Source: Seleniivibrio sp.
GTDB lineage: Bacteria > Chrysiogenota > Deferribacteres > Deferribacterales > Geovibrionaceae
Assembly: GCF_021209385.1 (NCBI RefSeq)
Contig: NZ_JAJOIL010000016.1
Location: 1-64,000, forward strand
DNA: 64,000 bases
Reading direction: 5' to 3'
A model generated the notes under the pieces. The model saw only the letters and a program-made list of their open reading frames with translations. It searched no databases and was not told the origin of the DNA. Each line of letters begins with the position of its first letter. The stretch's first letter is position 1. Made by a program: the position numbers and the translations under genes. Below are positions 46,775 to 50,137 of this stretch, piece by piece.

Positions 46775-47254
46775 TCAGATGTGCCAGAGAGGACCATCCT
46801 GATCATCTATCAGATTGGCGAGAACTTTGTTGTCTCTTTCATTGATGTTGGTGCGGTCAACACAACAGGTGGGGCAAAGGATATCGTCTTCAACATAAAC
46901 CGGAACACCCATACGCATGGCAAGAGCTATTCCGTCGGATGGTCTGCAGTCTATCTTTTTCTCGGACTTGCTGCATATAACATAGATGCTCGCCTTGTAG
47001 TTGCCCTGTTCGTACCTGTCAACTACAACACGGTCAATGTTCGCATCCTCTATGCTGTCTATGATGCGTGCTATGAATTCATATGTCATGGGTCTGGGGG
47101 TGTTGATCCTGTTTAAAACGCAGTAAATGGACTCCGCTTCGAGATCTCCGACATTGACAGGGATAAGATAGTGTCCGCAAAGGGTTTCCAGCAAAAGAAC
47201 GTATCTGGACGTAAGTGGTTCTCTGATGACACATTTAACCGTTGTCTCTATCAT
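46775..47254 (-). CDS. bifunctional nuclease family (DUF151) protein
   Basis: 159 residues. The DUF151 pattern is visible: LPVNVGDLEAESIYCVLN-like segment (PVNVGDLEAESIYCVLNR), RPMTYEFIARIIDSI, and RPSDGIALAMRMGVPVYVED, the last being the family's most conserved block. Family members have reported DNase/RNase activity, but substrate and role are uncertain. The C-terminus has a CPTCC cluster. GGAGGAATC precedes the ATG. It lies between the kinase B gene and the tlpA-like gene. Confidence 0.8.
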   Translation of the reverse strand: MIETTVKCVIREPLTSRYVLLLETLCGHYLIPVNVGDLEAESIYCVLNRINTPRPMTYEFIARIIDSIEDANIDRVVVDRYEQGNYKASIYVICSKSEKKIDCRPSDGIALAMRMGVPVYVEDDILCPTCCVDRTNINERDNKVLANLIDDQDGPLWHI

Positions 47255-47333
47255 TAAGATTCCTCCGGATCAAGCGTAATACCTATGTTAAAAATAGTTT
47301 TGCCAAACATAAAATCAATGGCAAATCCGGCAC

Positions 47334-47816
47334 TTATTTTAATTTTGTGGCGATATATTCAAGCTGGTTCTCTGTGAGGGGACCTTCAGCCCTGTCGAAC
47401 AGCTTGCCGTCCGGTTTAAAAATAAAGGAAACGGGGATGGTGTTAACGCTCATCTCCATGCCAAGGCTGTCGTCGCTGTGAACAACGGGGTAGGTTATCT
47501 TGAACTCATCTACAAATTTCTGTGCGTCCTCTGCTGTTTTGTCCACAGAGATACCGACTATAACGAAATCTTGGTCTTTATATTTTTCATACGCTTTAAC
47601 AAAATCGGGTGTTTCGCCGCGGCAGGGGGGACACCACGAAGCGAAGAAATTGACGATCAGGGTCTTTCCTGCATACTGCTTTTTCAGTTCCTCTAAATAG
47701 CCTTTTGAGACTGTCTGTATTCCCTGTTTATTTTCGGTTTTTTCCTTGCTGCCGAAACAACCGGACAGAAGGAACAGAGACATAAGCGCTATAAGCAGAA
47801 AGATCACTTTTTTCAT
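47334..47816 (-). CDS. TlpA/ResA-type thioredoxin-like lipoprotein
   Basis: 160 residues from ATG 47816, with GGAGG six nt upstream. Signal with lipobox LSGC (KKVIFLLIALMSLFLLSGC), so it is anchored to the outer face of a membrane. The thioredoxin fold carries the active site ASWCPPCRGETPDF and a later cis-Pro in NTIPVSFIF. Such proteins reduce c-type cytochromes or other periplasmic disulfides. Divergent from the CsoR-like gene: 121 bp between starts. Confidence 0.88.
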   Translation of the reverse strand: MKKVIFLLIALMSLFLLSGCFGSKEKTENKQGIQTVSKGYLEELKKQYAGKTLIVNFFASWCPPCRGETPDFVKAYEKYKDQDFVIVGISVDKTAEDAQKFVDEFKITYPVVHSDDSLGMEMSVNTIPVSFIFKPDGKLFDRAEGPLTENQLEYIATKLK

Positions 47817-47902
47817 TTTCATCCTCCGAAGTATCACCTTCCAAATATGCACTTTCGGCTATATTGCGTCAAGGATTTTCAAACGACTTTTATATTTTTT
47901 GA

Positions 47903-47932
47903 TTGACATATCCTATCCTATAGGATAGGATA
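47903..47932 (+). promoter_or_regulatory. promoter with perfect 24-bp palindrome upstream of the CsoR-like gene
   Basis: TTGACA (47903-47908) is followed at exactly 17 bp by TAGGAT (47926-47931). A perfect palindrome, half-site TATCCTATCCTA and its reverse complement (47909-47932), fills the spacer and the -10. The ATG at 47938 is six bp further on. AGGA inside the palindrome (47927-47930) could double as the ribosome-binding site. This arrangement indicates strong auto-repression by a dimer or tetramer. It may also affect the divergent tlpA-like gene. Confidence 0.7.
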
Positions 47933-47937
47933 TTCTC

Positions 47938-48174
47938 ATGGAACAGACGGCAAACGAGGATATCGTTAAAAGACTGCAAAGAGCGAACGGGCATTTATCA
48001 AAAGTCATCGAAATGCTGATTGAAGGTGATGCGGAACTGAACGTCGCCCAGCAGATGCAGGCGGTTTCAAAAGCGGTAATAAACGCGAAGAATCAATACA
48101 TAAGAAACAGTATAGATGCGCGGCTGGACAAAACGGCAGCAAGAGAGCTTGCCGAGCTTTCAAAATTTCTCTGA
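47938..48174 (+). CDS. CsoR/RcnR/FrmR-family repressor lacking the metal ligands
   Basis: 78 residues. The four-helix family pattern is clear: IVKRLQRANGHLSKVIEMLI, then LNVAQQMQAVSKAVINAK, then YIRNSIDARL. CsoR-type repressors usually place Cys in the first conserved position and His-x-x-x-Cys later; here there is no Cys or His at these positions (no Cys anywhere, and the only His is in NGHL). It therefore cannot bind copper or nickel in the standard way and may sense another signal or act as a constitutive DNA binder. The likely operator is the 24-bp palindrome upstream. Confidence 0.82.
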   Translation: MEQTANEDIVKRLQRANGHLSKVIEMLIEGDAELNVAQQMQAVSKAVINAKNQYIRNSIDARLDKTAARELAELSKFL

Positions 48175-48233
48175 ACGGATACTATGCGCTGCGGATGCTG
48201 CGAACTCCGCTGCGCTTGCTCATATCATACCTC

Positions 48234-48268
48234 GAAAAAAAAAGCGGGATTTCACACCCGCTTTTTTT
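48234..48268 (+). terminator. intrinsic terminator after the CsoR-like gene
   Basis: AAAGCGGG (48241-48248), loop ATTTCACA, CCCGCTTT (48257-48264), then TTTT. An A-run before the stem makes it work in both directions. The following gene-free stretch 48269-48757 holds only a weak minus-strand frame. Confidence 0.82.
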
Positions 48269-48390
48269 ACTACAGAACCCGAAGGTCTGCGCAATAACAT
48301 ATCGGCATCTTTTTATATCAATGCATGCCTTTTTGAATATGCAGAGAACTCAGTTTGTATTCTACACGCTATAAAGAGGTCTATTCCATA

Positions 48391-48649
48391 ATTTTAACAT
48401 AACCCGAAACCATATCCGCGCTCTTCCGGAAACCGGAGCGTATAACCGACGCCCCAAACGCAAACAACGCCCTCTCTGTCCCTTCATGAGCAAACACACC
48501 GGAAAAATTGCTGCCAACATCCGCACCCATTTCCGGATATAGAAGGGGCATTGCGATCGTCCTCAGGTTCAAACCGGATAAGCCGCTTCCGCTGTTTTCT
48601 CCGCTTTTTTATTCTTCGCCGCCGCTGTTATTGCAGTATCGTCATTCAT
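48391..48649 (-). pseudogene. possible degraded small gene
   Basis: On the minus strand an ATG at 48649 gives a 26-residue Ala/Lys-rich frame (MNDDTAITAAAKNKKAEKTA) ending at a stop, and a second frame, shifted by two, continues from about 48572 (IAMPLLYPEMGADVGSNFSG) to a stop near 48381. Codon choice looks coding-like, but there is no ribosome-binding site or family match. It could be a small frameshifted gene or chance. I see nothing else in 48269-48757. Confidence 0.2.
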
Positions 48650-48757
48650 AACAGAGCTTAAATAAAAATTACGGAAAAAACATCGACCATAAGGCTGAAA
48701 TTTCAGAGGAAATATCTAATACTAAAGTATGAGAGAGTAAATTATCAGATAGTTAGC

Positions 48758-50137
48758 CTATCTGCTTTTAAGAAGCAGGCTGATAAGTTCCGCACGCGTA
48801 TTCACATTGTATTTTGAAAAGATACTGCGCGCATGGGTTTTGACAGTGCTTTCGCTGATGTTCAGAGAATCGGCTATCGCCCTGTTTGATATTCCTGTGA
48901 GAATAAGCTCCAGAACCTCCTGTTCGCGTGCAGTCAGCGGTTCAAAGACGCTTATCTCCTGAACCTGTGCAGGCTCTGTGACATAATCCTCTTCCACAAG
49001 GTACGCGTGACTTTTGAGCTTCATGACAAGCATGCGGTTCAGAAGCGGCAGCATCGCAAGTGTTATACAAACCACCGTAAGGGCTATCACTGCAATCTCG
49101 GAATCAGCCAGCCCAGCGGATGTAATGAACATCCCCAGAGCGCCGCCGCATAGCACTCCCAGAACGTTTGCTGAAAGATTCATTCCGAACATCTTCACCG
49201 GATTGTCTGTATAATCAAGCATTTCACCAATTATACTCCACCAGAAAAGATCAAATATACCGCATGCACCCAACATCAGAGTATTTACTATGAGATAGTC
49301 AACAACGCCTCTGCCCAGAAGCATGAAACAGATGAACGACGCTATTATGGTCGCCATACCGACATAGAGTATCACATAACGCTTTATCCTGCCCGGCAGG
49401 TTGCGCATCACTGCCAGAGCAGCAATATAGGGGACAGCCCAGTACCAGCTTGTCAGCGTTGTAAGATGCCCGAAAGCCGGATTCATAACCTCGTACATCA
49501 GACCAGAATTTATTGTGATCACAAAAACGAACAGAAACAATATGAGCATGGGTTTCTTTGTGCCGCCCGCTTCGCAGCACCTTTTCTCCTGAACGTCGGA
49601 AGGGAGCTTCCGGATTAAAACGGCACCTGCCGCTATACAGGCAAGCGAAAAGGTAAGCCCGACAGTGTGCGATATATGTACAGCGGACATATTAACCAGT
49701 ATCATAATGATGTTGGAGTATATCAGGACATCAGCGCAAGTCTTTATACGCTGTTTTTTCGGTGTAAATGTCTTCAGGAAATATCCCCATGAAGCGACTG
49801 CCAGAGCAGACGAATAGCCCGCTATAACAAGCGATACGAACCATAGAGCCGACGGTTTGAAATAGAAAGGAAGAGTGCAGATAAAACTGACCGCCATACC
49901 GATAAGAACAACCTGTTTCGCTCTGCGGAGTGAACTAACGAAAAAACCGCATGTGAAGAGCCCCGCAAAATGGGCAACTATTGCAGAAAGAACAAGACTG
50001 CCCTCCTGAACTCCGTAAAATTCCATCACGCTGTAGAGAGCTCTCCCTTCAAAAAGGAAAGAAAGAATGTACGCAAAAAGGAGTGAGAATCCCCCTAAAG
50101 ACACTATACGACTGTTCACTGCACCATGTTCATTCAT
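48758..50137 (-). CDS. 12-helix membrane protein with C-terminal LuxR-type HTH
   Basis: 459 residues. Twelve hydrophobic helices fill residues 10-375, resembling an MFS-type fold (helices at SLLFAYILSFLF, VVLIGMAVSFICTLPF, LWFVSLVIAGYSSALAV and others). A cytoplasmic linker leads to a LuxR/GerE HTH at about 395-455: LTAREQEVLELILTGISNRA, then SESTVKTHARSIFSKYNVNT. It therefore looks like a one-component membrane regulator whose sensor is transporter-like. This architecture is known mainly from Actinobacteria such as Eggerthella; the ligand is unknown. Monocistronic. Confidence 0.85.
   Translation of the reverse strand: MNEHGAVNSRIVSLGGFSLLFAYILSFLFEGRALYSVMEFYGVQEGSLVLSAIVAHFAGLFTCGFFVSSLRRAKQVVLIGMAVSFICTLPFYFKPSALWFVSLVIAGYSSALAVASWGYFLKTFTPKKQRIKTCADVLIYSNIIMILVNMSAVHISHTVGLTFSLACIAAGAVLIRKLPSDVQEKRCCEAGGTKKPMLILFLFVFVITINSGLMYEVMNPAFGHLTTLTSWYWAVPYIAALAVMRNLPGRIKRYVILYVGMATIIASFICFMLLGRGVVDYLIVNTLMLGACGIFDLFWWSIIGEMLDYTDNPVKMFGMNLSANVLGVLCGGALGMFITSAGLADSEIAVIALTVVCITLAMLPLLNRMLVMKLKSHAYLVEEDYVTEPAQVQEISVFEPLTAREQEVLELILTGISNRAIADSLNISESTVKTHARSIFSKYNVNTRAELISLLLKSR

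Follow-up and report, generated by a model that had tools for sequence, protein, structure and literature searches.

A predicted autorepressor without the NreA metal pocket and a conserved 3′ RNA element in Seleniivibrio

Repressors of the CsoR/RcnR family such as CsoR, RcnR, FrmR, CstR and InrS sense metals, formaldehyde or persulfide with cysteine (and histidine) residues, whereas a 78-residue family member encoded in a stretch of 64,000 nucleotides from a Seleniivibrio sp. genome (hereafter the window) is Cys-free. This raises the question of what such a protein regulates and to what, if anything, it responds. A preliminary description of the locus had pointed to the missing metal ligands and to a perfect palindrome directly upstream of the gene, and had proposed either a signal other than metal, with a hint at redox or sulfur, or autoregulation without a ligand. 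We analyzed the gene, here termed csoR, and its surroundings (Table 1) in the five genomes of the genus, G000 (the source of the window, 2.9 Mb) and G025 to G028; Seleniivibrio woodruffii and a MAG assigned to the Deferribacteraceae are closely related to the source genome.

Table 1. Features of the csoR locus (window coordinates)
Feature	Position	Strand	Basis
Divergent thioredoxin-like lipoprotein; probably not a target	47337..47819	-	profile, promoter scan, sister-genus orthologues
Promoter TTGACA-17-TAGGAT; predicted +1 is the A of the ATG at 47938	47903..47931	+	consensus scan
Perfect 26-bp palindrome, read as autoregulatory operator	47908..47933	.	5/5 genus genomes, one copy each
NreA-type site A, TATCC-N9-GGATA	47909..47927	.	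motif scoring; consensus from PMC12724321
NreA-type site B, TATCC-N9-GGATA	47914..47932	.	read directly; overlaps site A, 5-bp offset
csoR, NreA/NcrB-clade CsoR/RcnR-family repressor, 78 aa, metal pocket absent	47938..48174	+	profile, alignment, tree
Conserved hairpin of the csoR 3′UTR, loop UGCUGCGAAC	48186..48215	+	stem varies, pairing retained
Conserved unpaired strand GCUCAUAUCAUACCUC	48218..48233	+	complementary to ribosome-binding site plus AUG
Terminator-like hairpin between A-tract and T-tract, bidirectional in form	48236..48269	.	sequence and folds

Family membership and the metal pocket

The family assignment and the lack of cysteine were both confirmed. The protein scores 42.3 bits against PF02583 (DUF156; curated cut-off 22.8), and histidine is indeed absent from the ligand positions, the only one, H19, being located in the family's G-H-L helix motif. 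An AlphaFold2 model derived from a 4-row alignment consists of three helices (pLDDT 85.5). When it was compared to the PDB using Foldseek, all of the best 17 matches, which include 5lcy, 2hh7, 7mq3, 5lbm and 5fmn, were members of the CsoR/RcnR family, with FrmR, CsoR, CstR and InrS as the best; their probabilities range from 0.91 to 1.00 and their TMq values from 0.57 to 0.73, but their E-values from 0.07 to 0.7. PF02583 and the three-helix fold are shared with the five sensors named above.

In a tree of 37 rows, the proteins of the genus are placed inside the NreA/NcrB/NirB clade (support 99/98), while E. coli RcnR, E. coli FrmR and the Deferribacterota CsoR-like proteins that were also included fall outside of it. 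The clade comprises 22 rows, namely the five genus members, which form one group (support 100/97), and 17 outside members (15 plasmid records, one phage-collection record and one Oligoflexia MAG); long branches elsewhere in the tree were flagged by the program. The outside relatives go by the names of NcrB, NirB or metal-sensing repressor, and most of them adjoin rcnA/ncrC, MFS or HupE genes. Among 50 genomes of the phylum, the 78-residue query matched exactly the five of the genus (identity 60–100%), and PF02583 matched 27, among whose loci that were read ordinary C-H-C proteins prevail. A tblastn search matched 526 plasmid records, all at less than 60% identity; the 15 plasmid records in the tree were drawn from these. 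Carriage by phages or viruses was considered and rejected, as the single match in phage records is an unverified faecal scaffold and no relative was found in the viral contigs searched.

The residues that form the metal pocket and contact DNA in NreA are described in PMC12724321. Because the sequence of NreA itself is not part of our alignment, its numbering was transferred by motif spacing (R17-R20, C38-Q44, C38-H63 and H63-C67). By this mapping, the Cys-His-(His)-Cys nickel pocket of the clade is missing, with C38 replaced by E33, H63 by S58, H66 by A61 and C67 by R62, while the DNA-contact residues R12, R15, Q39 and K76 are retained (R17, R20, Q44 and K91 in NreA). The efflux gene in the operon that goes with the clade is likewise missing, csoR standing alone before the terminator.

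Loss of the metal ligands is, on this alignment, common to the whole genus: at the positions of C38, H63 and C67, none of the three residues is kept in any of the five genus members versus all three in 17 of 17 outside members of the clade. Four of the five genus proteins are Cys-free. The exception is the most divergent one, G025, which has a single cysteine two residues before the first ligand Cys position and retains the peripheral histidine (H66 position). The three pocket positions read Asp/Ser/Arg in G027 and Gly/Gln/Ala in G025. Judged by codon comparison, csoR is under purifying selection, with dN/dS values of 0.03–0.08 (NG86; computable in three of six pairs) that are rough because dS lies above 1. 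The preliminary description would have given way had the ligands disappeared only recently and from this genome alone, with orthologues retaining Cys and His. This is not what is seen, as the loss extends to all five genus members and is accompanied by purifying selection; relatives outside the genus do carry such ligands.

According to tree and alignment, the gene is a genus-specific descendant of the Ni(II)-responsive NreA/NcrB/NirB repressors in which the metal pocket has been replaced. One might regard it as a relic, now in decay, of a nickel-efflux operon that has been lost, since csoR lacks the efflux-type partner that most relatives have and NicO-family genes occur in only two of the five genus genomes. 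The low dN/dS values and the conservation of operator and RNA element in 5/5 genus genomes (see below) make this reading very unlikely.

The source genome encodes a second CsoR (G000:C13:179442-179672), which keeps C-H-C, has a G/C-tract operator, is CstR-like by appearance and is preceded by ATACCCCATACCCCTATGGGGTAT. In a sister genus (G018, C1:2474061-2474306), another PF02583 protein without any cysteine lies behind the palindromic TATAGTATAGGGGGGTATACTATA; it belongs to the RcnR/FrmR side of the tree, and the CsoR/RcnR family may have lost its ligands a second time here.

Operator and promoter

The palindrome TATCCTATCCTATAGGATAGGATA was confirmed at 47909-47932, and an additional A/T pair extends its perfect symmetry to 26 bp. 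It is the sole perfect gap-free palindrome of at least 18 bp in the window, for which base composition predicts 0.004 such palindromes at a length of 24 bp and 0.001 at 26 bp. The promoter noted earlier was also recovered: TTGACA (47903-47908) and TAGGAT (47926-47931), separated by a 17-nt spacer, constitute the best promoter-like match in 47250-48760 (10/12). Five bases separate the 24-mer from the ATG of csoR, the A of which is the seventh base after the -10 element, and from this promoter position the csoR mRNA is predicted to be leaderless.

This architecture closely resembles that of Mesorhizobium NreA. Jensen and Griffitts described an operator TATCC-N9-GGATA within the -35/-10 spacer, of which TCC-N9-GGA is essential while G-poor variants are still functional, a -10 element TAGNAT and a leaderless mRNA, the architecture being mapped by 5′-RACE (PMC12724321). 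The csoR locus shares with it the operator inside the spacer, the TAGNAT -10 element, the start codon at the predicted +1, the DNA-contact residues and the position of the gene as the first of its unit. It differs from NreA in the absent C38/H63/H66/C67 pocket, in the absence of efflux genes behind the gene, in a pair of overlapping sites centred on CTATAG and in the conserved 3′ RNA. NcrB/NirB of plasmid-borne nickel resistance and of Leptospirillum ferriphilum are similar to csoR in their clade, in an inverted-repeat operator and in repression, which is predicted here; however, L. ferriphilum NcrB has two conserved Cys and one conserved His, and its operator is GC-rich (ATCCCCCTGGGGGGGAT) and released by nickel (PMC3046157).

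The operator had been regarded as unusual for the family. This holds true for its centre, where CTATAG replaces a G/C tract, but its A/T-richness and TATCC repeats are not foreign to the family, since they correspond to two overlapping copies of the TATCC-N9-GGATA motif of the NreA/NcrB clade (motif from PMC12724321). Because the centre is CTATAG, site B overlaps site A at a 5-bp shift, which creates the direct TATCC repeats. When gaps of 7 to 10 were scored, the csoR operator reached 10/10 at gap 9, a value obtained in none of 300 shuffles. The motif is present upstream of all 20 genes scored (five genus members and 15 relatives) at 9/10 or 10/10, with 10/10 in 15 of them. It ends 10 bp before the start codon in 4/5 genus members and 6/15 relatives, and this is also the distance from site A of the window to the ATG. 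In two NcrB-clade relatives (L042 and L049), the operator is 80 and 39 bp away from the start codon, so that not all clade members share the leaderless layout.

The operator before csoR is present in all five genomes of the genus, with one central change in G027 and one change in a half in G025, and no second operator was found in any of them at up to three mismatches, a search that weaker sites would escape. Operator identity and single copy per genome are thereby shown at the sequence level, and with one operator per genome, the only evident target of the repressor is its own transcript.

That the divergent neighbour encodes a thioredoxin-like lipoprotein was confirmed, its type being ResA/TlpA-like, and the divergent arrangement is retained in 5/5 genus genomes, as would be expected if csoR encoded a redox or sulfur regulator of this gene. 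The 78-residue protein, however, has no thiol to react, the lipoprotein gene possesses a separate promoter-like site, which lies past the palindrome at a distance of about 35 bp, and its sister-genus orthologues (3/3) have another gene upstream and no csoR. The suggested redox or sulfur link was therefore not borne out and is very improbable. On the other side, convergent to csoR, a minus-strand gene (48758-50137) encodes an MFS-like membrane part with a C-terminal LuxR-type HTH (GerE, 66 bits).

A conserved RNA element behind csoR

In all five genus genomes, a hairpin followed by GCUCAUAUCAUACCUC is located between the csoR stop codon and the terminator, with one change in the strand of G025. 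The stem pairs differ and yet pair (GCGCuGCGGA/UCCGCuGCGC; GUCUGUGGA/UCCACAGAC; GACGGAUGCGG/CCGCAUUCGUC), whereas 32 of 32 nucleotides, comprising the unpaired strand (16 nt) and 16 nt surrounding the loop, do not vary among the four closer species; none of the 21 fourfold codon sites of csoR is invariant in the same species. A covariance model built from these five elements, with stricter filters applied, gave one strong match per genus genome directly after csoR (5/5, E 1.8e-15 to 2.1e-10); in the 45 other genomes of the phylum, all matches stayed at noise level (E 0.14 or worse). A multi-copy repeat is ruled out by the single copy per genome. We thus show, by comparison of sequences, that the RNA element is conserved in the genus.

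Hairpin stability relative to shuffles amounts to z-scores of -1.5 to -1.8 in four species and -3.1 in G025; as these energies are only moderately better than those of shuffles, the case for an RNA rests on conservation. In MAFFT columns, two-sided changes affect 4 of 22 pairs and the covariation term is slightly unfavourable, which is partly due to misalignment of a bulge. In the Rfam scan of 47300-48800, no plus-strand hit with an E-value of up to 10 overlapped the element; the best hit lies on the opposite strand and falls short of its gathering score. The consensus scan found no plus-strand promoter-like site between the csoR start and the 3′ hairpin, and the terminator-like hairpin is absent from its list. 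A peptide reading (LRTP..A(H/R)IIP, in frame in G026, G028 and G027, and in G025 without ATG) was not adopted: the window lacks one base in this part, so that its frame is shifted, and codon third positions within the element stay fixed.

The position of the element, always between the csoR stop and the terminator, would suit a mere stabilizer or processing signal of the csoR mRNA rather than an acting RNA. This alternative, which competes with the RNA part of our explanation only and is compatible with the rest, has a reasonable chance of being correct, though we would not favor it: the loop and the unpaired 16-nt strand are fixed while the stem letters vary, which suggests recognition by sequence and not plain stability. 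The strand is the complement of a ribosome-binding site with start codon (GAGG-N6-AUG), which suggests an RNA output. For the same reason, near matches of the strand often lie at gene starts. Its complement occurs within two mismatches at 17 non-self places, at 10 of which an ORF of more than 200 residues begins at the ATG. The pattern GAGGTA-N4-6-ATGAGC is found at 26 places in the five genomes, 4 of them the element's own; the 22 others include satP (5), a purA-like gene (4) and an oxidoreductase-subunit gene (4). The satP/YaaH-family acetate transporter gene carries GAGGUA...AUGAGC at its start in 5/5 genus genomes (L106-L110), and the predicted duplexes with the strand have -17.7 to -21.3 kcal/mol. 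Since ribosome-binding sites are conserved between orthologues anyway, this conservation is not independent evidence, and the satP-like transporter, although the best lead to a target, is no more than a candidate. The lipoprotein mRNA was rejected as a target: its duplex of -10.3 kcal/mol is within one s.d. of the starts of 92 window ORFs (mean -7.7, s.d. 2.8 kcal/mol), mechanical ORFs of which many are not genes, and the G025 gene start reaches -4.6 kcal/mol.

A ligand-blind autorepressor and its possible output

In our proposal, the csoR product would bind as a tetramer to the two overlapping NreA operators between the -35 and -10 elements of the leaderless csoR promoter. It would shut off its own transcription in this way, and metal would no longer be able to release it. 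The NreA variants C38A, H63A and C67A, which super-repress in that nickel no longer relieves repression (PMC12724321), would have a natural equivalent in this protein. Autoregulation without a metal ligand, one of the options initially raised, is supported as a likely mode. Without an inducer, the transcript level would be set by negative feedback alone, so that the unit would act as a homeostat with a low, steady transcript level as its output. From the layout we infer a transcript of csoR, the conserved hairpin, the anti-RBS strand and the terminator. As this unit holds only csoR and the RNA, no product other than the repressor and this RNA is evident, and the RNA may be set free from the csoR 3′UTR as a small RNA. 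Taken together, we consider it probable that csoR encodes a natural, ligand-blind autorepressor of the pocket-less NreA type, working as a homeostat with the RNA. That a small RNA is the real output of this homeostat, its anti-RBS strand blocking ribosome-binding sites, is a tentative extension that we consider less likely than not.

Ligand blindness also faces objections. The tested NreA mutants carried alanines, whereas Glu/Asp and Arg occupy the pocket here, and the authors suggest that side chains which are bulky or carry a positive charge may instead imitate the non-repressing, metal-bound state (PMC12724321). G025 keeps the peripheral histidine and possesses a cysteine close by, and it is difficult to see why a repressor should regulate nothing but itself if the RNA is of no importance. 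The pocket might instead have been rebuilt for another signal, with an inter-subunit ion pair of Glu/Asp33 and Arg62 that would respond to pH, to an anion or to a small molecule. The two Cys positions of CsoR lie opposite one another across the subunit interface. The metal pocket of NreA is intersubunit (PMC12724321). An acid at 33 and Arg at 62 are present in 4/5 genus members, with Asp for Glu in G027, and the strong purifying selection on csoR would fit a rebuilt pocket. In G025, however, the two residues are Gly and Ala, so that the pair is not general, and the neighbours suggest no effector; we regard a rebuilt pocket as unlikely and retain ligand-blind autorepression as the preferred reading.

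The CsoR fold, the NreA operator and the leaderless start are known parts. In the open-licence PMC literature, our searches turned up neither a pocket-less NreA/CsoR nor an RNA located behind csoR, the nearest study being that on NreA (PMC12724321); the combination seen here, a pocket-less member kept by selection throughout a genus and linked to a conserved RNA, did not come up in them. If true, csoR would be a natural metalloregulator without its metal that is maintained by selection, which asks for the purpose of pure self-repression. The locus would provide a natural test of the findings on NreA that pocket mutants are super-repressors and that operator G tracts are dispensable, and with one operator, one 78-residue repressor and one conserved RNA in about 370 bp it offers a compact unit that can be dissected.
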